Shown here in pieces: positions 1,682 through 38,644 of a stretch of DNA of 42,667 nt (position 1 is the stretch's first letter; the number at the start of each line of letters is the position of its first letter). The DNA lies in contig JACZYU010000004.1 in NCBI GenBank assembly GCA_022570935.1, positions 1-42,667 on the forward strand, read 5' to 3'. Source of the stretch: Planctomycetota bacterium (GTDB taxonomy: Bacteria; Planctomycetota; Brocadiia; Brocadiales; Scalinduaceae). Under the pieces are notes generated by a model, which was not told the origin of the DNA, ran no database searches, and was given only the letters and a program-made list of their open reading frames with translations. Position numbers and translations under genes: made by a program.

Positions 1682-3082
1682 ATGGCAAATATCATGAATA
1701 ATAAAAAGAAAAGTATTTCCCGTGGAATTGCTGAATACGCACTTTCGCTTGACTATAATGACCTGTCACCGGAAGTAATACATGAGGCTGAGAGAAGGGT
1801 CCTTGACAGCTTTGCCTGTGCACTGGGTGCATTCACAAGCATTCCGGGGCAAATCGCAAGAAATATGGGGCGACAGGTTCAAAGTGATTATGGTGCTACT
1901 ATCTTTGGGACCGGGGATAGAACAACTCCTGAATTGGCCACATTTGCAAATGGCATCCTCTTCCGTTATTTAGATTATAATGATACTTACCTTTCTAAAG
2001 AGCCCGCTCATCCCAGTGATAATATACCGGCAGCAATTGCTGTTACCGAAGCCGAAGGTGGAAGTGGGAGGGACTTGATTACGGCGATAGTCCTGGGGTA
2101 TGAGATTCAGTGCAGGCTTTGTGATTCTGCATCGCTCAGATCAAGGGGATGGGATCATGTCGGTTATGTCTCAATATCAAGTTCCGTCCTTGCATCCAGA
2201 CTTATGAATATGGAATTGCAAGAAATTGAACATGCAATCGCCTTGAGTATTGCGCCGAATATTCCTTTGAGACAAACAAGGGTGGGAGAGCTATCCATGT
2301 GGAAAGGTGCCGCCGCCGCTAACGCTGCAAGAAACGGTGTCTTTGCTGCTCTGCTTGCGAGAGGAGGGATGACTGGGCCATGTGAAATCTTTGAGGGGGA
2401 GAAAGGATTCTTTAAACAGGTTACGGGACCTTTTGATCTGAAGGTTGAAGACTTTGGAGGCAAGGGAGAGAATTTCAAGATCCTTGATACCTATATAAAA
2501 TACTATCCTTCAGAGTATCATTCACAGGCAGGAGTTGAAGCTGCATTGTCTTTACGTGACAAAGTAGATATTGAGGATATAAAAGAGATTAATATCGAAA
2601 CCTATGACGCATGTGTGGATATCATTGCAGGGGAAAAAGAGAAGTGGCATCCTATGACGAGAGAAACAGCCGATCACAGCCTGCCATACTGTGTTGCCGT
2701 TGCCCTTTGCGACGGGACGGTGGGACTCGAACAGTTTACGGAAGAGAGGATTAAAGACCCTGATTTACAGAAGATTATGTCAAAGATAAAGGTTATGCGT
2801 AATCCCGAACACAACAAACAGTATCCCGATGCCTTTCCCTGCCTTATAGAGATAAAGAGCAAATCGGGTGAAACCTTTACCAAGACAGTTACATACCCCA
2901 AAGGCCATCCCAAAAATGCTCTAACAGACAGTGAACTGGAGGAAAAATTCAATACCCTGAACTCAGGACTTATTAAGGATAATACAGTAAAAGAAATTGT
3001 TGATAATATATGGCGATTGGAATCTTTGACGGATATCGGTTGTTTTATGAAGCTTTTTAAAGTAGACACAAGTATTTATTAG
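1682..3082 (+). CDS. prpD: 2-methylcitrate dehydratase, MmgE/PrpD family
   Basis: A 466-residue MmgE/PrpD-family protein, close to the family's usual 450-480. It would dehydrate 2-methylcitrate towards 2-methylaconitate in the methylcitrate cycle. Family hallmarks: LDYNDTYLSKEPAHPSDNIPA (about 98-118), RGWDHVGYVSIS (about 154-165), KYYPSEYHSQAGVEAAL (about 274-290) and DHSLPYCVAVALCDG (about 331-345). No strong ribosome site precedes the ATG; MNNKKK, 4 codons in, is an alternative start. prpB follows 249 bp downstream, across a repeat-rich gap with a hairpin, and prpC lies 9.5 kb away beyond a toxin-antitoxin island. MmgE/PrpD proteins also include iminodisuccinate-epimerase-like and itaconate enzymes, but the prpB/prpC neighbourhood supports the methylcitrate role. 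Confidence 0.9.
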   Translation: MANIMNNKKKSISRGIAEYALSLDYNDLSPEVIHEAERRVLDSFACALGAFTSIPGQIARNMGRQVQSDYGATIFGTGDRTTPELATFANGILFRYLDYNDTYLSKEPAHPSDNIPAAIAVTEAEGGSGRDLITAIVLGYEIQCRLCDSASLRSRGWDHVGYVSISSSVLASRLMNMELQEIEHAIALSIAPNIPLRQTRVGELSMWKGAAAANAARNGVFAALLARGGMTGPCEIFEGEKGFFKQVTGPFDLKVEDFGGKGENFKILDTYIKYYPSEYHSQAGVEAALSLRDKVDIEDIKEINIETYDACVDIIAGEKEKWHPMTRETADHSLPYCVAVALCDGTVGLEQFTEERIKDPDLQKIMSKIKVMRNPEHNKQYPDAFPCLIEIKSKSGETFTKTVTYPKGHPKNALTDSELEEKFNTLNSGLIKDNTVKEIVDNIWRLESLTDIGCFMKLFKVDTSIY

Positions 3083-3331: not shown

Positions 3332-4192
3332 ATGAAGCCAAAAATTAAAGATCTTATGAAAGATGGCATTGTTGTAATGCCGGGGGCCTTTAACGCAATA
3401 TCGGCAAAGCTTGTAGAGAGGGCTGGTTTTAAGGCCGTTTATATATCAGGGGCGGGTCTGGCAAACGGTGTTGCCGCCATGCCTGATATAGGGCTTCTTA
3501 CTATGACAGAGGTTTTGACTCAGTCAAAGTACATCATAGATGCCGTAGATATACCATGCATAATTGATGGAGACACCGGTTTTGGAGAGGCCATAAACGT
3601 AATGATGATGATTAAGGAGATGGAAGGTTTGGGTGCCGGTGGTGTGCATATAGAAGATCAGGAGATGCCTAAAAAGTGCGGTCACCTTGCGGGAAAGAGA
3701 TTGGTTCCACCTGCAGCCATGGCAGTGAAGATTGCTGCTGCAGTAGAGGCGAGAACAGACCCTGACTTTCTCATAATAGCAAGGACAGATGCGAGGGCTG
3801 TAGAAGGAATAGATGAGGCAATCAAAAGGGCAGCCGTTTATTTAGAAGCAGGGGCAGATGCGATATTTCCTGAAGCGCTTGAATCTAAGGAAGAGTTTGC
3901 TTTGTTCAGAAAAGAAGTCAGCGCTCCACTCTTAGCCAATATGACAGAGTTCGGTAAGAGCCCGTATACGAGTGTCAAAGAGTTTGAAGAGATGGGCTAC
4001 AATATGGTAATCTTCCCACTAACGGCCTTCAGGGTGATGCTCAAGTCTGTTGCAGATACATTAAGTAAGCTGAAGGCAGAAGGGAGCCAGGAAACATTTA
4101 TTGAAGAAATGATGACAAGGGAAGAACTATATGAAATTATTGGATATGAAGATTACGAAGTAATTGATAAAAAAATAAGTGAAAAGGGGTGA
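3332..4192 (+). CDS. prpB: 2-methylisocitrate lyase, PrpB
   Basis: A 286-residue isocitrate-lyase/PEP-mutase-superfamily enzyme, the normal length for PrpB (about 290). It cleaves 2-methylisocitrate to pyruvate and succinate, the last step of the methylcitrate cycle. Seen: PGAFNAISAKLVERAGFKAVY (17-37), IDGDTGFG with metal-binding aspartates (Asp79, Asp81), VHIEDQ (105-110) and the KKCGH signature with catalytic Cys116. ARTDAR (about 151-156) and FPEALES (about 176-182) are further superfamily motifs. No clear Shine-Dalgarno is seen. The last 245 bp (3942-4186) recur at 7757-8001 with about 8 differences and again, damaged, at 10663-10903. The gene itself is intact. Confidence 0.95.
   Translation: MKPKIKDLMKDGIVVMPGAFNAISAKLVERAGFKAVYISGAGLANGVAAMPDIGLLTMTEVLTQSKYIIDAVDIPCIIDGDTGFGEAINVMMMIKEMEGLGAGGVHIEDQEMPKKCGHLAGKRLVPPAAMAVKIAAAVEARTDPDFLIIARTDARAVEGIDEAIKRAAVYLEAGADAIFPEALESKEEFALFRKEVSAPLLANMTEFGKSPYTSVKEFEEMGYNMVIFPLTAFRVMLKSVADTLSKLKAEGSQETFIEEMMTREELYEIIGYEDYEVIDKKISEKG
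3942..4186. repeat. prpB 3'-end repeat, parent copy (copies at 7757 and 10663)
   Basis: From TGACAGAGTTCGG to ATAAGTGAAAAG this segment aligns without gaps to 7757-8001, and with a frameshift and an end deletion to 10663-10903. The left boundary is sharp: the bases before TGACAGAG differ here from those before both copies, which share their own upstream sequence. Confidence 0.9.
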
Positions 4193-6299: not shown

Positions 6300-6542
6300 A
6301 TGAAAGTTCAAATTCAAAAATGGGGTAACAGCCTTGCGCTTCGTATTCCAAAATCCTTTGCTATGGAAGCAAAAGTTAAAGAAGGTTCAGCGGTAGACAT
6401 TTCATTAAAAAAAGGTAAGATTGTTTTGACACCTTTAAATGAAAAAGAATACACCCTGGAAGGCCTTTTATCCAAAGTAAACGACCAAAATATTCATGCA
6501 GAAATCTTTACCGGCAAGCCCGTAGGGCGTGAAATATGGTAA
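6300..6542 (+). CDS. mazE: MazE-type antitoxin (SpoVT/AbrB fold)
   Basis: An 80-residue swapped-hairpin DNA-binding antitoxin. The N-terminus MKVQIQKWGNSLALRIPKSF is the classic MazE motif; VKEGSAVDISLKKGKIVLTPL completes the AbrB domain (to about residue 48). The acidic/aromatic tail (about 50-80) would bind and block the toxin. GGGAGAG lies about 8 nt before the ATG. The last codons overlap the mazF start by 7 bp, so the two genes are translated together. Autoregulation of the operon is expected from the family. Confidence 0.93.
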   Translation: MKVQIQKWGNSLALRIPKSFAMEAKVKEGSAVDISLKKGKIVLTPLNEKEYTLEGLLSKVNDQNIHAEIFTGKPVGREIW

Positions 6543-6901
6543 AATCGGAAAGTTATGTCCCAAGTTGTGGAGACATAGTTTGGATCAATTTTGATCCTCA
6601 ATCCGGCCATGAACATGCTGGAAGACGGCCTGCTTTGGTCTTATCTCCGCAAAAATACAACTTCAAAGTTGGACTGGCTATTTTTTGCCCTATCACCAAA
6701 AATGTAAAAGGTTATCCATTTGAAGTCTTAGTTCCAAAAGGTTTTAAAGTTTCCGGTTCTATTTTATCAGACCATGTCAAGAATCTTGATTGGCGAGCAA
6801 GGGAAACGGAGTTTATTGGCAAATTGCCAGATAATGTGATTAAAGATGTGTTAAAAAAACTTGGTACTTTATTGTCTTTTCCAGGTATCCCAATCCAATA
6901 A
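6536..6901 (+). CDS. mazF: MazF-type endoribonuclease toxin (PemK family)
   Basis: A 121-residue MazF/PemK toxin that would cut mRNA at short specific sequences. Compared with E. coli MazF it keeps YVPSCGDIVWINFDPQSGHE (6-25), AGRRPALVLSP (28-38), the KGYPFEV segment and SDHVKNLDWRAR (about 78-89); the family's catalytic Arg and Thr regions (RRPALVL, CPITKN) are present. It starts inside the mazE stop region. It looks intact and probably functional. Neighbours downstream are a short higA-like fragment and the duplicated DUF4258/YgiT unit. Confidence 0.94.
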   Translation: MVKSESYVPSCGDIVWINFDPQSGHEHAGRRPALVLSPQKYNFKVGLAIFCPITKNVKGYPFEVLVPKGFKVSGSILSDHVKNLDWRARETEFIGKLPDNVIKDVLKKLGTLLSFPGIPIQ

Positions 6902-7493: not shown

Positions 7494-7718
7494 ATGAAAT
7501 GTGTGTTTTGTGGAGGCAAATTAGAAAGAAGAAATGTCGCATTTCGTTATGAAGAAGATAATAATTACTTTTTTGTAGAGGAAGTTCCTGCCGAGGTTTG
7601 TACCTCTTGTGGTGAAAAAACATATTCTCCTGAAGTCACAGATAAACTCCTAAAGTATGCAACAGAGGAGCATAAACCTACAAAGACAATTGAAGTACCG
7701 GTTTTCAGTTTCGAATAA
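7494..7718 (+). CDS. YgiT-type zinc-finger antitoxin, copy 1
   Basis: A 74-residue protein with two CxxC pairs, CVFC near residues 3-6 and CTSC near 36-39, as in the N-terminal zinc domain of MqsA/YgiT antitoxins. It lacks the C-terminal helix-turn-helix of full MqsA, the usual short form found with DUF4258 partners. A very strong ribosome site, AAGGAGG, lies 8-9 nt before the ATG. It would neutralise the DUF4258 protein. A second copy with the same protein sequence lies at 10397-10621. Confidence 0.9.
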   Translation: MKCVFCGGKLERRNVAFRYEEDNNYFFVEEVPAEVCTSCGEKTYSPEVTDKLLKYATEEHKPTKTIEVPVFSFE

Positions 7719-7756
7719 AGTAGAGGGAAATAATAATAAAAATTTCCTTTGCTTTG

Positions 7757-8010
7757 TGACAGAGTTCGGCAAGAGCCCGTATACGAACGTCAAAGAGTTT
7801 GAAGACATGGGCTACAATATGGTAATCTTCCCACTAACGGCCTTCAGGGTGATGCTCAAGTCCGTTGCAGATACATTAAGTAAGCTTAAGGCAGAAGGGA
7901 GCCAGGAAACGTTTATTGAAGAAATGATGACAAGGAAAGAACTATATGAAATTATTGGATATGAAGATTACGAAGTAATTGATAAAAAAATAAGTGAAAA
8001 GATAAAATAA
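7757..8010 (+). pseudogene. prpB 3'-terminal fragment, copy 1
   Basis: Encodes TEFGKSPYTNVKEFEDMGYN and onward, the last 81 or so residues of PrpB, without gaps and with about 8 nucleotide differences from the intact gene in 245 bp. The frame is open and ends at a TAA at 8008-8010. It has no start of its own: the open frame runs back into the YgiT gene in another frame. It lacks the whole catalytic part, so an enzyme role is excluded. It may act only as a recombination substrate. Confidence 0.9.
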
Positions 8011-8107: not shown

Positions 8108-8422
8108 ATGAAAACAAATTTTAAGTCAAAAAAGCTAAAAAAGAAGTTTGAAACCAGAAAAGAGCTCGAAAGGACTTATGGTACTCGTCAGGCCAAAAAA
8201 ATAACTCAGCGTATGAATGAACTATATGCGGCTGAATCATTGCATGATATTAAAAGCAACCCTTCTTCAAGGCTACATCAGTTATCGGGTAATTATAAAG
8301 ACTATTTAGCTGTCGATTTAGTACACCCTTACAGGCTTATTTTCAGACCTGAAGATGGAGAAATAAAAAACTATAGAACTATAACAATTGTAGAAATAAT
8401 TAAAGTGGAAGATTATCATTAA
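8108..8422 (+). CDS. higB: HigB/RelE-type toxin
   Basis: A 104-residue 'plasmid maintenance killer' protein of the RelE/HigB fold, which would be a ribosome-dependent mRNA interferase. Seen: a basic N-terminal helix FKSKKLKKKFETRKELERTYG, then TRQAKKITQRMNELYAAESLHDI, RLHQLSGNYKDYLAVDLVHPYRLIFRP (about 57-83, the beta core with its conserved Arg) and the C-terminal ITIVEIIKVEDYH, a recurrent ending of HigB toxins. TAATG links its stop to the start of the antitoxin gene, indicating translational coupling. Confidence 0.9.
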   Translation: MKTNFKSKKLKKKFETRKELERTYGTRQAKKITQRMNELYAAESLHDIKSNPSSRLHQLSGNYKDYLAVDLVHPYRLIFRPEDGEIKNYRTITIVEIIKVEDYH

Positions 8423-9513
8423 TGGGAAACATTATGAGCTACTACAAAGCCCCAATTGCCATACATCCGGGAGAAACGTTAAAAGATATCTTAGATGAAA
8501 TGAAGCTGTCACAAGCTCAGTTGTCAGGACGTACGGGTCTGCATGTCAAAACGATAAACGAAATTATAAAAGGTAAAAACCCAATTACGTCGGAAACAGC
8601 GCTTAAACTTTCGATTGTCTTTGGCATGTCTGAAAGTTTTTGGAATAATTTACAACGAAATTACGAAGAAACGATTGCCAGGATTGCTTTAGAAAAAGAG
8701 ATAGAAAAAGAGTCGAAGATAGCTGCAGGATTTACATGTTATAATGAACTGGTAAAACATAAATATGTTGAAAAAGCTACTGACCTAAGAGAAAAAGCAA
8801 GGTTTTTGCTGAATTTTCTAGGCTTGACATCCTTTAAATATCTTGAAAGGAATTATAGCGTTGCCTTTCGTAAATCATCAGCAGGTAAAGTATCAAAAGA
8901 AAACCTGATTGCATGGTTACGTTGTGGTGAACTTGCGGCTTCGAATATTGAAACAAGACCTTTTAATAAAACCAAATTAAAACAGATGTTACCCCAAATC
9001 AGAAAATTAAATTTACTTAAACCTGATGAGTATTCACTAAAATTGAGAACTTCGCTTGCAGAATGCGGTGTTGCCGTTGCATATGTGCCATATTTAAAAA
9101 ATACATACGTAAATGGGGCAACTCGTTGGTTAAACCCATTAAAAGTGTTAATTCAATTGACGCCAAGGAATAAAAGCGAAGATATTTTATGGTTCACGTT
9201 ATTTCATGAATTGTGTCATGTCTTGAAGCATGGGAGGAAAGAAGGATATATCTCTTTTTGGGAAGATGATTATCTAAACAAGAATTACAAGGAACTCGAA
9301 CATGAAGCCGATTCCTTTGCCTCAGAAACACTCATTTCTGGAAAAGAGTGGGACAGATTTTTTGGAAAAGGTTCGTTTAAACACTCTGAAATAATTAATT
9401 TTGCCAGGAAAACAGGCGTAAAGCCTGGAATTATTGCAGGAAGATTGGCTAAAGAAACAGGCAACTGGGCACGATATTCCAGGTTTAGAGAAAAAGTTGA
9501 TGTTGGTGTGTGA
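8422..9513 (+). CDS. higA: HigA antitoxin fused to ImmA/IrrE-type metallopeptidase
   Basis: A 363-residue, two-domain protein. Residues about 13-85 are a HigA-type HTH: HPGETLKDILDEMKLSQAQL, then LHVKTINEIIKGKNPIT and the SESFWNNLQRNYEE ending typical of HigA. Residues about 150-330 are an ImmA/IrrE (COG2856) peptidase with HELCH (262-266) and a second zinc-ligand segment EHEAD (293-297). The fold would let the protein repress its operon and cleave a regulator, possibly itself. Plain HigA antitoxins are about 100 residues, so the fusion is the long variety. MSYYK, 4 codons in, is an alternative start. It overlaps the higB stop by one base. Confidence 0.92.
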   Translation: MGNIMSYYKAPIAIHPGETLKDILDEMKLSQAQLSGRTGLHVKTINEIIKGKNPITSETALKLSIVFGMSESFWNNLQRNYEETIARIALEKEIEKESKIAAGFTCYNELVKHKYVEKATDLREKARFLLNFLGLTSFKYLERNYSVAFRKSSAGKVSKENLIAWLRCGELAASNIETRPFNKTKLKQMLPQIRKLNLLKPDEYSLKLRTSLAECGVAVAYVPYLKNTYVNGATRWLNPLKVLIQLTPRNKSEDILWFTLFHELCHVLKHGRKEGYISFWEDDYLNKNYKELEHEADSFASETLISGKEWDRFFGKGSFKHSEIINFARKTGVKPGIIAGRLAKETGNWARYSRFREKVDVGV

Positions 9514-12592: not shown

Positions 12593-13723
12593 ATGAACGA
12601 CAAATCCAAAATCGCTTCCGGTCTTGAAGGGGTTGTAGCGGGAAGAACATCTATCTGCAAAATAGATTCAGATCAATGCGAACTCTTTTACGGTGGATAT
12701 TCCATTAATGATCTTGCCTTAAACTCAAGTTTTGAAGAAGTGGCATATCTGTTGTTGCACGGCGAGCTTCCTGATAAAAAGAGTCTGGAGGATTTTTGCA
12801 GTGAATTGGCAAACGAAAGAGAAATACCTGCTGAATTGATAAATATTATTAAAGAACTTCCAAGTGGAACCGACCCTATGGACGTCTTAAAGATTGCCGT
12901 TGGAATCCTTCATACATCAGACCCTGACGGGACGTCAAATACAAATGATGCAAATATGAGAAAGGCAATAAGGCTTATAGCAAAGATTCCAACAATTATT
13001 ACATACGATTATAGAATAGCAAATGACATGGAACCGATCAAACCCGATGCCCGGCTCTCTTCTGCGTCAAACTTTTTGTACATGTTGAACGGGGAGGAAC
13101 CTGAAAGCTATAAGTCTGATGTCCTTGATAAATCATTAATCCTTTATGCCGAGCATGGATTAAATGCTTCGACCTTTACGGCAAGGGTAGTTGCCTCGAC
13201 CCTGTCAGACCTTCATTCTGCAGTTATGGCGGCTATTGGAGCCTTAAAGGGTCCATTACACGGCGGCGCAAATGAGAGGGTGATGGAGATGCTTCTTGAA
13301 ATAGGTGATGTGGAAAAAGTAGAACCATGGATCAAACAAGCCCTTTCTGAAAAAAAGCTCATAATGGGTTTTGGCCACAGGGTCTATAAAAAGCAGGATC
13401 CAAGGGGTATCATAATAAAAGAAATAGTAAAGGAATTAGGAGAAAGGCTTGGAAATAATAAGTGGTTTGAGATGTCTCAAAAGATGGAAGATATCGTTAC
13501 TGCGGAAAAGGGGCTTCATCCTAATCTGGACTTTTACTCTTCTTCAGCCTATTACCTTTTAGGTATACCAATTTCCCTTTATACACCTATATTTGTTGTT
13601 TCAAGGATTACAGGCTGGATAGCCCATGTCACGGAACAGTATAATGACAACAGACTCATAAGGCCCAGAAGTGAATATGTAGGACATGAAAAAAGGGAGT
13701 ACGTTCCAATTGAAGACAGATGA
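12593..13723 (+). CDS. prpC: 2-methylcitrate synthase / citrate synthase, PrpC
   Basis: A 376-residue type II citrate-synthase-fold enzyme, the short (about 375) form typical of PrpC and bacterial dimeric citrate synthases. It condenses propionyl-CoA (or acetyl-CoA) with oxaloacetate. Catalytic residues: His223 in GPLHGGANE, His262 in GFGHRVYKKQDPR and Asp313 in HPNLDFYS. Also present are AEHGLNASTFTARV (186-199) and the C-terminal signature VSRITGWIAHVTEQYNDNRLI. GGGAG sits about 6 nt before the ATG. The presence of prpD and prpB on the same strand favours methylcitrate synthase, but citrate synthase activity cannot be excluded. The accessory island separates it from prpB. Confidence 0.92.
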   Translation: MNDKSKIASGLEGVVAGRTSICKIDSDQCELFYGGYSINDLALNSSFEEVAYLLLHGELPDKKSLEDFCSELANEREIPAELINIIKELPSGTDPMDVLKIAVGILHTSDPDGTSNTNDANMRKAIRLIAKIPTIITYDYRIANDMEPIKPDARLSSASNFLYMLNGEEPESYKSDVLDKSLILYAEHGLNASTFTARVVASTLSDLHSAVMAAIGALKGPLHGGANERVMEMLLEIGDVEKVEPWIKQALSEKKLIMGFGHRVYKKQDPRGIIIKEIVKELGERLGNNKWFEMSQKMEDIVTAEKGLHPNLDFYSSSAYYLLGIPISLYTPIFVVSRITGWIAHVTEQYNDNRLIRPRSEYVGHEKREYVPIEDR

Positions 13724-18938: not shown

Positions 18939-20315
18939 ATGGCTTTAGATAAGTTCTTTAATCCTGAATCTGTAGCCGTAATAGGTGCAACAGAAGACCC
19001 CAAAAATATCACATCGATGATTATGAAAAATCTCATTGAAATGGGATTTGAAGGAAGGCTTGTGCCGGTCAATCCTCATCATGACGAAGTGTTTGGGCAT
19101 AAGTGCTATCCTTCGCTCCTTGAAATCAAGGAGAAGATAGACCTGACCGTAATTTCAATACCTGCCAGATTTGTGCCGGAAGTTCTTCGTCAACAGGCCA
19201 CGTGTGGAATAAAAAATGCGATAGTAGTAAGTGGGGGATTTGCTGAATCAGGGTATAAGGGAGCGATATTGGAAGAGGAAGTCATGAAGATATGCAAGGA
19301 AGAGGGCATACGCTTAATGGGACCGAATTGCATTGGTGTTTTAGACAATTATTCGAACTTCAGTTCATCGTTCCTGCCCTGGACAAAGGTTAAAAGGCCA
19401 GCTAAAGGAAACTTGAGCATACTATCACAAAGTGGTTCCTTTGCCATTTGTGTACTGGACATGTTGTCTGAAGAAGGTATGGGTGTATCAAAGGTTATAA
19501 ATTATGGAAATAGAGCTGATGTAGGTGAATCAGAAATGATTGAATATCTTACGGATGATGATTCAACGCACGTAATAGGAATTTATATGGAATCTGTTGA
19601 TGATGGCAGAAGGTTTATAGATGCCTCCAGTAGTTGTTCAAAGTCTAAGCCTATAGTTGCATTAAAGGTTGGCAGGCGGGATTCAGGGATTGAGGCAGTA
19701 AAGTCACATACTGGAACCATTGCCGGTAAATATGAAATTTACAAAGCAGCTTTCAAGAAATCCGGGATAGTCGAAGTTAATGGTTTCACAGAGTTTCTGG
19801 ATGCATGTAAGGTACTCTCAATGCAAAAACCGGCAAAAGGGGAAAAAATCCTCGTCTTGACCAATGGTGGAGGATTTGGTGTTGCAACGTCAGATATGTG
19901 TAGCGATACCGGACTTGATGTTGCAAACACACCTGAGAGTGTCAGGAAAGTGCTGTCGGAAAAGTTTCCGGGGTATTTTATACTAAGTAACCCGATTGAC
20001 CTGACGGGTAGTTCGGGGGATGAAGATTATGGTATAGCGATGAAGGCTGCATTGGTTGATAATGATTTCTTCGATGCTGCAATTATAATTCCGCTGATGC
20101 CACCTGAGACAATGACGGAGGGGGTAGTTGAAATTATTTCACAAATGGCAAGGGAATCTGGAAAACCTGTCGTTATCTGCGTGGCTAGCGGTGTGTATAC
20201 AGGGGGGGTCAAAACGAAGTTTGAAGAAAAAGGCCTTCCTGTCTTTCCAACACCTGAAAGATGTGTGAAAGCTATGAGTGTATTAGTAGAAAGAGGAAGA
20301 ATGAATGGCTGTTAA
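18939..20315 (+). CDS. acdA: ADP-forming acyl-CoA (acetate-CoA) ligase, alpha subunit
   Basis: A 458-residue alpha subunit of NDP-forming acyl-CoA synthetase. The N-terminal CoA-binding Rossmann domain (PESVAVIGATEDPKNI, about 9-24; VPVNPHHDEVFGHKCYPSL) leads to VVSGGFAES and MGPNCIGV (127-134). Succinyl-CoA-synthetase-type ligase domains follow: SQSGSFAICVLDML, NYGNRADVGE and KSHTGTIAG with His257, the probable phosphohistidine. The enzyme interconverts acyl-CoA + ADP + Pi and acid + ATP + CoA. It overlaps the beta subunit gene by 11 bp. In context it may activate propionate or acetate, or make ATP from acyl-CoA; substrate is undetermined. Confidence 0.9.
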   Translation: MALDKFFNPESVAVIGATEDPKNITSMIMKNLIEMGFEGRLVPVNPHHDEVFGHKCYPSLLEIKEKIDLTVISIPARFVPEVLRQQATCGIKNAIVVSGGFAESGYKGAILEEEVMKICKEEGIRLMGPNCIGVLDNYSNFSSSFLPWTKVKRPAKGNLSILSQSGSFAICVLDMLSEEGMGVSKVINYGNRADVGESEMIEYLTDDDSTHVIGIYMESVDDGRRFIDASSSCSKSKPIVALKVGRRDSGIEAVKSHTGTIAGKYEIYKAAFKKSGIVEVNGFTEFLDACKVLSMQKPAKGEKILVLTNGGGFGVATSDMCSDTGLDVANTPESVRKVLSEKFPGYFILSNPIDLTGSSGDEDYGIAMKAALVDNDFFDAAIIIPLMPPETMTEGVVEIISQMARESGKPVVICVASGVYTGGVKTKFEEKGLPVFPTPERCVKAMSVLVERGRMNGC

Positions 20316-21021
20316 AAATACAAAATTCAAGGATGCCGGGGAGATTATAGAAAATGCACTGGCTTCAGGACGGAAAATATTGCTTCCTGATGAAGCCATG
20401 GATATTATTAAATCATCAGGAATTTCCACTCCTGCTTATGCTCTGGCTAAGACAGCCAACGAAGCAGTAACGGCGGCAAAGTCCATGGGATTTCCGGTTG
20501 TCTTAAAGATAGTTTCACCGGACGTACTGCATAAAAGTGATGTAGGGGGTGTTGTCGTTGGTGTAGAGAACGATAAAGAAATTGAGAGGAATTATAATGA
20601 GATTATGAATAATCTAACCAAAAAGGTTCAGGATGCTGATATAATGGGAATGTTGGTTGAGAAACAGGTGCCTACAACAACTGAGGTGATTGTAGGTGGC
20701 ATAAGGGACGAACAGTTTGGGCCAACCGTTATGTTTGGCCTGGGAGGAATTTTTGTTGAACTCTTTAAAGATGTGGTATTCAGGATTGCACCTGTTACAG
20801 AGACAGAAGCATTGGAGATGATAGGTGAGATTAAGGGTTATTCAGTATTAAACGGTTACAGGGGCACAGAGAAGCTTGATATACAAAAACTTTCAAAGAC
20901 AGTAGTTACCGTTTCTGAATTAATCTCGGATATTGACGAAATAAAAGAAGTTGAACTGAACCCTCTGCTTGTTTATACAGAAGGAGTAACAGCCGTTGAT
21001 GCAAGAATCATTATAAATTAA
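20305..21021 (+). CDS. acdB: ADP-forming acyl-CoA (acetate-CoA) ligase, beta subunit (ATP-grasp)
   Basis: A 238-residue ATP-grasp beta subunit, the usual length of the separate form. Seen: ILLPDEAMDIIKSSGISTPAYALAKTANEAVTAAKSMGFPVVLKIVSPDVLHKSDVGGVVVGV (about 25-87, the ATP-binding lysine in VLKIVSP and the KSDVGGV loop), MLVEKQVP, FGPTVMFGLGGIFVELFKDVVFRIAP and the metal-binding end VELNPLLVY. It overlaps the alpha gene, so the pair forms an operon and a heteromeric enzyme. Confidence 0.9.
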   Translation: MAVKNTKFKDAGEIIENALASGRKILLPDEAMDIIKSSGISTPAYALAKTANEAVTAAKSMGFPVVLKIVSPDVLHKSDVGGVVVGVENDKEIERNYNEIMNNLTKKVQDADIMGMLVEKQVPTTTEVIVGGIRDEQFGPTVMFGLGGIFVELFKDVVFRIAPVTETEALEMIGEIKGYSVLNGYRGTEKLDIQKLSKTVVTVSELISDIDEIKEVELNPLLVYTEGVTAVDARIIIN

Positions 21022-21179: not shown

Positions 21180-21293
21180 CGGGCTAAAATCGTAAATCGT
21201 AATTTTTTATCATCAGCGGCCTTACTTTTTAAAAGTGTTAGATATTCGTTATTCGATACTAAAAAATTTTGCTGAGAAAAGGAGGTGATACAA

Positions 21294-21614
21294 ATGTTTA
21301 GAAAACTGTATTTATGCATCATTATGATACTCGTAGTATTTTCTATGGGTTACCTTCTACATTTTTCGGACGTAAATGCCGGCAAAAAGAAGATTTTTGT
21401 CTGCTATTATTGTAAAGACTGCGAGTGTAATTTCGAGGCTGACAAATTTGGCAAATGTGTATGTGGTGAACTACTATTACCATCTGACAGAAGACCAGCA
21501 GAAACATCTAAGTATGTATGCGGTTGTGGTGAAGAATGCAAGTGCGGTTCCATATCAGATAAAGAGGGAAATTGCGTGTGTGACAAACCTATGAAGGAAA
21601 GGAAAGGGGCATAG
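21294..21614 (+). CDS. Exported 12-cysteine small protein, first of tandem pair
   Basis: 106 residues from ATG 21294. AAGGAGGTGA (21279-21288) is a near-perfect ribosome site about 8 nt upstream, and a GTG lying inside it is not the start. Residues 1-29 are a signal peptide ending VNA. The mature part has 12 cysteines in two repeats of C-x2-C-x2-C-x-C-x9-C-x-C type: Cys 37, 40, 43, 45, 55, 57, then 76, 78, 82, 84, 94, 96. Each repeat ends GKCVCG or GNCVCD. The family is not recognised. The spacing suggests metal or Fe-S binding, or a dense disulfide knot outside the cytoplasm. The next gene encodes a clear paralogue 3 bp downstream. Confidence 0.82.
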   Translation: MFRKLYLCIIMILVVFSMGYLLHFSDVNAGKKKIFVCYYCKDCECNFEADKFGKCVCGELLLPSDRRPAETSKYVCGCGEECKCGSISDKEGNCVCDKPMKERKGA

Positions 21615-21617
21615 ATA

Positions 21618-21959
21618 GTGTTGAAAAGTTTGAGGAGTAGCATAGTTACAATTATGGCAATCAGCATGATAACCTTTGGAGGGCTCTTTTACTCTGGCCA
21701 GAATACAGGGGCAGAGGAGGGCAAGAAGAAGACTATTTATATCTGCTACTGTGCAGGAGGCTGTTTATGCGCCTATGAGACGTACGAATCCGGCGGCAGA
21801 TGCGTCTGCGGCCTGGCCACTATCCCGTCAGACAGGGAAGAGATGAGCGATGAATATGAATACGAGTGTGATTGTGGTACCATGTGTGAGTGCGGGACAG
21901 TGGCCGATGAACCGGGTCTATGTCATTGCGGTATACTGGAAATGAAGGAAGTGGAATAG
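21618..21959 (+). CDS. Exported 12-cysteine small protein, second of tandem pair
   Basis: 113 residues from a GTG start. The N-terminus has a positively charged start and a hydrophobic core (IVTIMAISMITFGGLFY), a signal peptide or anchor. The 12 cysteines (43, 45, 49, 51, 62, 64, 84, 86, 90, 92, 102, 104) repeat the two-module layout of the gene before it: KKTIYICYCAGGCLCAYE parallels KKKIFVCYYCKDCECNFE, and ATIPSDREE parallels LLPSDRRP. The tail is more acidic. The gene lies 3 bp after the first, so both are co-transcribed, and the pair arose by tandem duplication. Confidence 0.8.
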   Translation: MLKSLRSSIVTIMAISMITFGGLFYSGQNTGAEEGKKKTIYICYCAGGCLCAYETYESGGRCVCGLATIPSDREEMSDEYEYECDCGTMCECGTVADEPGLCHCGILEMKEVE

Positions 21960-25897: not shown

Positions 25898-26182
25898 ATG
25901 CGACTTAGCGAATCTGAACAACAAGTCATCAAACAGAGTGTTTCTGTTTTTGATAAACAAGCAAAAATTGTCCTATTTGGATCACGAGCCAATGATGCTG
26001 CACGGGGTGGAGACATTGACCTGTTAATTATCTCTGATAACATAAAACAACAGCATCTGGGACAGATACGATGGAAACTCTGGGAAAAGCTGGGTGAGCA
26101 GAAAATTGACATTATACTTTCTAAAAGGCAATTGTCAGATACGTTTGCGCGTATAGCTTTTGAACAAGGTGAGGTGCTGTGA
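25898..26182 (+). CDS. mntA: MntA-type nucleotidyltransferase antitoxin
   Basis: A 94-residue minimal nucleotidyltransferase. LFGSRANDAARGGDIDLLI (26-44) carries the GS-x9-DxD signature with Asp39 and Asp41 binding metal; a third acidic residue is expected in KIDIIL (about 70-75). In characterised HepT-MntA systems this enzyme adds AMP residues to a tyrosine near the HEPN active site of the toxin, switching it off. The stop overlaps the hepT start as GTGA, so the two genes are translationally coupled. Confidence 0.92.
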   Translation: MRLSESEQQVIKQSVSVFDKQAKIVLFGSRANDAARGGDIDLLIISDNIKQQHLGQIRWKLWEKLGEQKIDIILSKRQLSDTFARIAFEQGEVL

Positions 26183-26640
26183 CGGATTCAAATAACATTC
26201 AATTACTCAAAGAAAACCTGGAGGCAATGGACAGTGCGATTTATTGGCTGGAACGTTCAATAGGGATTTGCAATCAGATTGGGATTAAAATGGACTATGC
26301 GGAGGAAGAATATGATGCTTTTGAAACATTGTCAAGTCGATATGCAAGAGCGATTGATTTGATTGTACGCAAGGTCTTGAGGACGATTGATCTGGTGGAG
26401 TTCGAACAACCCGGCACATTGATAGATACTGTAAATCGTGCAGAAAGGCGAGGTTTGATAGACAATGTAAATGAGTTACGCACCATGACTGATTTACGGA
26501 ATGAAATCGCTCACGATTATATCAAGGCAGAATTGGTTGAAACCTTTGAAAATATACTCAATCAAACTCCACAAGTCATTGCACTGGCTAAGCGTATTAA
26601 GGATTATGTTAAGCAAAATGTACATTTGAGTGATTCGTAA
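26179..26640 (+). CDS. hepT: HepT-type HEPN ribonuclease toxin
   Basis: A 153-residue all-helical HEPN protein (DUF86/HI0074 type), GTG start. The catalytic motif R-x4-H-x-Y is seen as RNEIAHDY: Arg107, His112, Tyr114. Tyr114 is the residue that MntA partners AMPylate. YARAIDLIVRKVLRTIDL (about 55-72) and NELRTMTDLRNEIAHDY match the family. The last 14 codons plus 31 bp downstream recur as a scar at 22022-22092, so a related gene once stood about 4.5 kb away. Confidence 0.92.
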   Translation: MTDSNNIQLLKENLEAMDSAIYWLERSIGICNQIGIKMDYAEEEYDAFETLSSRYARAIDLIVRKVLRTIDLVEFEQPGTLIDTVNRAERRGLIDNVNELRTMTDLRNEIAHDYIKAELVETFENILNQTPQVIALAKRIKDYVKQNVHLSDS

Positions 26641-38063: not shown

Positions 38064-38270
38064 ATGAAAACAGTAAAGGTCTCTCCTAAATTTCAAGTAG
38101 TTATTCCACATCAAATCAGGAAATCATTGGGAATTAAACCAGGTACGAAAGTTCACGTTTTGCAGTATGAAGATCGTATTGAGTACATACCCGTTAAGAA
38201 GGCGAAGCAAATGCGCGGTTTTCTGAAAGGAATCAATACTACTGTGAAAAGAGAAAAGGACAGAATATGA
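38064..38270 (+). CDS. vapB: VapB-type antitoxin (SpoVT/AbrB fold)
   Basis: 68 residues from ATG 38064 (an ATG at 38052 would add four). The AbrB swapped hairpin is complete: MKTVKVSPKFQVVIPHQIRK, then SLGIKPGTKVHVLQYEDRIEYIPVK. A basic tail (KAKQMRGFLKGINTTVKREKDRI) would contact the toxin; 'MRGFLKG' is common in VapB proteins that pair with PIN toxins. Its stop overlaps the vapC start as ATGA. Confidence 0.9.
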   Translation: MKTVKVSPKFQVVIPHQIRKSLGIKPGTKVHVLQYEDRIEYIPVKKAKQMRGFLKGINTTVKREKDRI

Positions 38271-38644
38271 ACCTCGTAGACTCCAGTGGCTGGCTTGAAT
38301 ACTTTGCAGATGCGCCTAATGCCAATTATTTTGCAAAACCCATTGAAGATGTCAATGATCTTGTTGTACCTTCTTTATGTGTGTTTGAGGTATTTAAGAA
38401 TATTCTTAGGCAAAGAGATGAGAATTCAGCTCTTCATGCAATAGCCCTGATGGAACAAGGTTTGGTCATAAATTTAGATACACCCATTACATTAAGCGCT
38501 GCCAGACTTGGTTTGGAATTTAAGCTTCCATTAGCTGATAGCGTTATACTGGCAACGGCCAGAACAAATGATGCAATAATATGGACTCAAGATGCAGACT
38601 TTAAAAGCATTCCTGGCGTTAATTTTGTTCCTAAAAAGAAATAG
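38267..38644 (+). CDS. vapC: VapC-type PIN-domain ribonuclease toxin
   Basis: A 125-residue PIN protein with the acidic metal site: Asp5 (MNLVDSSGWLEYF), Glu41 (VPSLCVFEVFKNIL), Asp91 (LPLADSVILATAR) and Asp109 or Asp111 (WTQDADF). VapC toxins cut RNA, often tRNA or rRNA. Start and stop overlap VapB by 4 bp. The pair lies between hflX and the inositol-phosphatase gene, whose end is on the opposite strand, in an otherwise housekeeping stretch, so it was probably acquired. Confidence 0.93.
   Translation: MNLVDSSGWLEYFADAPNANYFAKPIEDVNDLVVPSLCVFEVFKNILRQRDENSALHAIALMEQGLVINLDTPITLSAARLGLEFKLPLADSVILATARTNDAIIWTQDADFKSIPGVNFVPKKK

Follow-up and report, generated by a model that had tools for sequence, protein, structure and literature searches.

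The type A and type B gene pair

The window, that is, the whole stretch of 42,667 nucleotides analysed here, contains two adjacent small genes, designated type A and type B. They lie head to tail on the same strand with 3 nt between them, and their products share 37% sequence identity. The features of the pair are as follows (positions in the window):

21280-21290, + strand: Shine-Dalgarno region of the type A gene (AAGGAGGTGAT), read from the sequence
21294-21614, + strand: type A gene, 106 aa, ATG start; predicted signal peptide and two six-cysteine modules (open reading frame and sequence)
21294-21383, + strand: predicted type A signal peptide, probably cleaved after VNA (residue 29) or beside it (inspection and AlphaFold helix)
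21390-21485, + strand: type A module 1, C-x2-C-x2-C-x-C-x9-C-x-C; matches the family profile
21507-21599, + strand: type A module 2, CxCxxxCxC-x9-CxC; matches the family profile
21618-21959, + strand: type B gene, 113 aa, GTG start; predicted signal peptide and two six-cysteine modules
21732-21821, + strand: type B module 1, CxCxxxCxC-x10-CxC; matches the family profile
21858-21950, + strand: type B module 2, CxCxxxCxC-x9-CxC; matches the family profile

The initial annotation had described tandem signal-peptide genes with two six-cysteine repeats each, and the motif search bears this out. A scan of all six frames of the window for C-x(1-2)-C-x(2-3)-C-x-C-x(8-11)-C-x-C gave exactly four matches, all within the type A and type B genes (CYYCKDCECNFEADKFGKCVC, CGCGEECKCGSISDKEGNCVC, CYCAGGCLCAYETYESGGRCVC, and CDCGTMCECGTVADEPGLCHC); 200 simulated order-3 Markov windows gave none. 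The CxCxxxCxC spacing is present in the N-terminal half of three of the four modules. Among the surrounding residues previously described as conserved, PSDR is kept; KKK.I..C is exact in type B, but only KK-I--C is found in type A. The start had been placed at 21279, which belongs to the ribosome site of type A; the gene itself starts at 21294. The near-perfect Shine-Dalgarno sequence that had been noted is present (AAAAGGAGGTGATACAAATG), and is shared by two of the three other type A orthologues. The ribosome site of type B is weaker. An abundant type A protein might be expected from such a site.

The signal peptides were called by eye from the K/R residues, the hydrophobic stretch, and the A-x-A-like end. 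AlphaFold places a helix over the signal region of both proteins (residues 2-20 in type A and 2-23 in type B). The models, built from an alignment of 27 sequences, have a mean pLDDT of 81 for type A and 76 for type B. In the type A model the module region has block pLDDT values of 77-96, and both modules have the same strand pattern. The Foldseek search of this model against the PDB identified no similar solved structure, and the Rfam search of the window gave no match.

An ADP-forming acyl-CoA synthetase-like gene pair (18939-21021, named from sequence) lies about 270 bp ahead of the type A gene. The host assembly has 2.5 Mb in 270 contigs and encodes the hydrazine synthase alpha subunit (PF18582, E 8.5e-23), which is absent from 14 control genomes. 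The host genome is of the marine anammox type, Candidatus Scalindua-type.

Several other genes were observed in the window. PrpD-like, PrpB-like, and citrate-synthase-like genes were named from their translations (1682-3082, 3332-4192, and 12593-13723), which suggests a 2-methylcitrate (propionate) cycle in this anammox genome. The methylisocitrate-lyase-like gene at 3332-4192 (+) is repeated in truncated form some 3.5 kb downstream (7657-8010, +). The duplicated part is the C-terminal 89 residues, with 89% identity in protein and 97% in DNA over 245 nt; the copy is either a partial gene duplication or an assembly scar. Toxin-antitoxin-like genes were recognized by eye at 6536-6901, 8108-9513, 25898-26640, and 38267-38644, and include a MazF-like type, a HigB/HigA-like type with an extra C-terminal domain, an MNT/HEPN pair, and a PIN-domain protein.

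Conservation in the anammox families

The search covered 17 Scalinduaceae genomes (the host and 12 more of its genus, plus 4 others), and each encodes at least one protein of the pair, type B being present in all 17; the Scalinduaceae are taken here to be family f1 of the genome searches. The relatives with matching contigs include Candidatus Scalindua rubra, S. sediminis, and S. arabica. Such a protein also turned up in a single f2 genome out of nine; none was found in the 30 genomes of f5, the sister anammox family, which is probably the Brocadiaceae. Type A is limited to the host genome and three other Scalinduaceae genomes (G002, G013, and G014), where it is always upstream of type B; the orthologues in these three share 72-84% identity with it. 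Most Scalindua genomes contain type B without type A.

All 12 cysteines of type B are invariant across 15 sequences, and 11 cysteine columns are invariant among the four type A sequences. The dN/dS ratio is 0.08 for the mature part and 0.32 for the signal part of type B, and 0.14 for the mature part of type A, ratios that are only rough because dS is near 1. Strong purifying selection on both proteins is supported.

In Scalindua, the gene found most regularly beside type B (12 of 16 loci) encodes an exported CarboxypepD_reg protein of some 260 aa; it lies upstream of type B, either directly or ahead of the acyl-CoA synthetase-like pair (loci L024-L037). This ADP-forming pair is the other recurrent neighbour. 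None of the genes conserved around the Scalindua loci is a metal gene.

The wider homologue family

Profile searches identified exported homologues with the same plan in 17 of 395 genomes of the phylum to which G333, a Desulfobulbaceae genome, belongs, and in 17 of 258 genomes of its class; G333 alone contains three copies. About 4% of the sampled Desulfobacterota have homologues with two or three modules, and homologues were also found by profile in a few Planctomycetota outside the order. The family alignments share the plan of an export signal, judged by eye, followed by tandem modules. Two forms can be distinguished. One has two modules joined by a linker of 30-40 residues (KVGDxLYVCxCG...KAKVTKVEKG...GKYxCxC); the other has three modules and consists mostly of lipoproteins.

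Some homologues contain additional stretches rich in His and Met, such as HHGGMHHGM in L108. A three-module lipoprotein at L220:6552-7136 (-) has an added CPCTCKC and a HGQHQHGQGMMM stretch, which suggests extra metal sites. Met/His-rich stretches of this kind are typical of extracytoplasmic copper sites.

A few candidates were set aside. The apparent domain fusion in L046/L066 (a frame of 599-680 aa) is an upstream open frame in GC-rich DNA, and the real start is at the internal signal peptide. L041, L057, and L058 are doubtful relatives, as no gene with the cysteine motif was seen in any of the three; L122 is doubtful as well. The tblastn search of plasmids with two homologues gave no match.

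Cysteine richness was controlled for by scoring the window modules, each with 1000 shuffles in which every cysteine was fixed, against a module profile built from Desulfobacterota only. For type A module 1 (z 7.6), type A module 2 (z 10.3), and type B module 2 (z 7.4), no shuffle reached the real score. By this measure, three of the four window modules resemble the Desulfobacterota modules far beyond cysteine spacing. Type B module 1 has a z of only 2.0, with 41 of 1000 shuffles reaching its score, and is therefore tied to the family mainly via the adjoining module and the corresponding module of type A.

The initial annotation knew of no family with this pattern. This holds for curated models, since the sequence searches of Pfam, NCBIfam, PHROGs, and the PDB found no entry covering the six-cysteine module; but a Desulfobacterota/Planctomycetota family does exist, and a distant kinship to the heavy-metal-binding domain HMBD (PF19335) is likely. 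As there is no Pfam or NCBIfam model for the family, many copies are likely annotated as hypothetical. A match to a known metallothionein, EGF-like, or ferredoxin family had been named as evidence against a new pattern. No EGF-like or ferredoxin Pfam family matched the type A/B proteins at E up to 10, nor did the metallothionein models of Pfam and NCBIfam. Sub-threshold metallothionein-like scores were seen in relatives only: the MymT model (NF052418) gave at best 18 bits (L074; cut-off 80), and Metallothio_PEC gave E 0.0035-0.0058 (0.0035 in L038) and at best 18.1 bits (cut-off 31.8).

The HMBD kinship concerns the C-terminal half of the module. HHalign aligned this half (SDKPGxC-CGxxM) with the end of HMBD over 18 columns (probability 86%, E 5e-6). 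The third module of the Desulfobacterota lipoprotein type scored 28.3 bits against the HMBD profile, with a maximum of 9.4 among the cysteine-fixed shuffles. For the window, type A module 2 scored 8.4 bits, which 3 of 500 such shuffles reached; 9 of 500 reached the score of type B module 2, and type A module 1 was not distinct from its shuffles. At the curated Pfam cut-off (23.6 bits), no HMBD match was found for type A, type B, or the aligned family members. The C-terminal knuckle PG-x-C-x(1-2)-C-G-[ML] is present, and the N-terminal C-P-M-H-P is absent, with a CxCxxxCxC-type half instead in all modules. Since the scores are strong for the family and weak for the window modules, the HMBD link is solid for the family as a whole and indirect for type A and type B. 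The six-cysteine module is likely a distant relative of HMBD, and probably derived from it or shares ancestry with it.

Gene neighbourhoods and the copper question

Copper genes adjoin several homologues. The gene for NosL (PF05573), a Cu(I)-binding assembly factor (PMC6530538), directly adjoins two of them (L067 and L072, E 1e-20 and 5e-27). The homologue in L068 has two multicopper oxidases as direct neighbours, and the one in L111 lies between CusB/CusA and a multicopper oxidase. The CusB-type protein beside the L111 homologue (L111:348-2411, -) combines a single HMBD with three YHS stretches and a TRASH domain.

None of 40 control stretches from the same genomes as the first locus set contained copper genes (phmmer, E 1e-4). 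In an independent replication set, 0 of 15 Desulfobulbia loci had copper neighbours and 2 of 17 controls had copper genes; a copper operon is not a general rule for the homologues. In the pooled data, 4 of 34 loci have a copper gene within two genes, compared with 1.7% of control genes (binomial p 0.002), and the region-level Fisher p is 0.14; these p-values flatter the case, because the copper-gene categories and query proteins were picked after the first locus set was seen. The copper neighbours did not replicate, and copper is therefore only favoured, in a suggestive way, as the metal that these proteins may bind.

Proposed function and alternative explanations

Metal binding is supported as the best reading of the type A/B modules. 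The proteins are most likely extracytoplasmic metallothionein-like metal-thiolate proteins with HMBD-related modules, which would most likely bind Cu(I) and act as a buffer or carrier (probability about 0.6). Export and metal binding are predicted from sequence; we also infer copper as the metal and the buffering role. Both proteins would cross the cytoplasmic membrane in the apo form and reach a compartment exposed to metals, which may be a periplasm-like space or the anammoxosome side. In each module, the CxCxxxCxC half and the C-terminal PG-x-CxCG knuckle would fold round a metal-thiolate cluster, with an estimated 3-4 Cu(I) per six thiols. The metal would be held safely outside the cytoplasm, and might be handed to cuproenzymes or efflux systems. 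The module itself may have arisen from HMBD, or from shared ancestry, with the CPMHP half swapped for the CxCxxxCxC half.

CxC-rich proteins can also bind Zn or Fe, or form disulfides. An exported metal-thiolate protein for zinc, iron, mixed, or toxic metals (Cd, Hg, As) is a rather unlikely reading. The HMBD-like half and the CxC clusters are not metal-specific, CopY itself takes Zn(II) when copper is low (PMC7558416), and the copper neighbours are sparse; but wherever a homologue has a metal-related neighbour, it is a copper gene, and some homologues contain the Met/His-rich stretches. The modules might instead act in thiol redox, with CxC pairs cycling between thiol and disulfide, or be merely stabilised by disulfides. 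Exported cysteine-rich proteins often form disulfides, metal binding is itself read from sequence, and an AhpC/TSA-type gene lies in the region of one homologue (L113). The CxCxxxCxC and CxC spacing is, however, the pattern of metallothioneins and CopY, the module shows HMBD kinship, and no Dsb-like gene was seen recurring beside the homologues, all of which makes this explanation improbable. Thiol storage, which had been suggested earlier, is at best a possible role.

It appears very improbable that the proteins serve, as ExtJ does in Geobacter, as small periplasmic accessories to electron transfer or oxyanion reduction. The L038, L068, and L112 loci lie near cytochromes or CxxCH-rich proteins, but no cytochrome operon recurs. 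The NCBIfam ExtJ model (NF040942) gave 22.8 bits for the full-length L073 protein, but this score comes mainly from the signal peptide; the mature part reaches 12.3 bits (E 0.17, cut-off 52.5). ExtJ kinship was rejected on this ground, and the model did not match the type A/B proteins.

The copper-buffer reading can be extended to the whole family. The homologues may form an undescribed extracytoplasmic Cu(I)-thiolate family, in which HMBD gave rise to a six-thiol module, which is fixed in the Scalinduaceae and scattered in the Desulfobacterota, and which buffers or delivers copper in anaerobes. This wider proposal is tentative, and we place it below even odds. If true, such a family of exported cluster proteins would reveal how anaerobic cells keep hold of copper on the outside. 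Copper transport genes are strongly expressed in Scalindua profunda (PMC3655542). Every Scalinduaceae genome searched has the gene, which is strongly conserved, and the 30 genomes of the sister family lack it; it may therefore be relevant to how marine anammox bacteria manage copper.

Comparison with known systems

ExtJ is a small periplasmic protein of Geobacteraceae from a selenite/tellurite operon (PMC5877670, PMC6148476). NosL is encoded beside two homologues, but is unrelated in sequence. The copper-sulfide protein of Desulfamplus (PMC9534983), considered as a relative, is a different, CpxP-like protein.

The bacterial metallothioneins (MymT and SmtA types) and the plant Metallothio_PEC proteins are likewise small and CxC-rich, but contain no tandem HMBD-like knuckle. 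Known bacterial metallothioneins are cytoplasmic. Metallothioneins and thiolate-cluster copper storage have mostly been described as intracellular (PMC7558416). Judged by title, six of eight papers naming CxCxxxCxC concern metallothioneins or plant cadmium-binding proteins.

The C-terminal copper site of CopY has the identical CxCxxxCxC cysteine spacing, as found in three of the four window modules, and binds two Cu(I) through it (PMC3817396, PMC7558416) or Zn(II) at low copper (PMC7558416). However, CopY is a cytoplasmic repressor, and the two were compared here by cysteine motif alone.

In module design there is a likeness to HMBD, found in the CusB N-terminus and related proteins. Both have about 30 residues, an aromatic residue before the first cysteine, and the end S-D-K-P-G-x-C-(x-x)-C-G-M-x-L. 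The module differs in having CxCxxxCxC in place of CPMHP and CxC in place of the longer CPxC, with six cysteines compared with three in HMBD, and it stands free, in tandem, in small proteins predicted to be exported.
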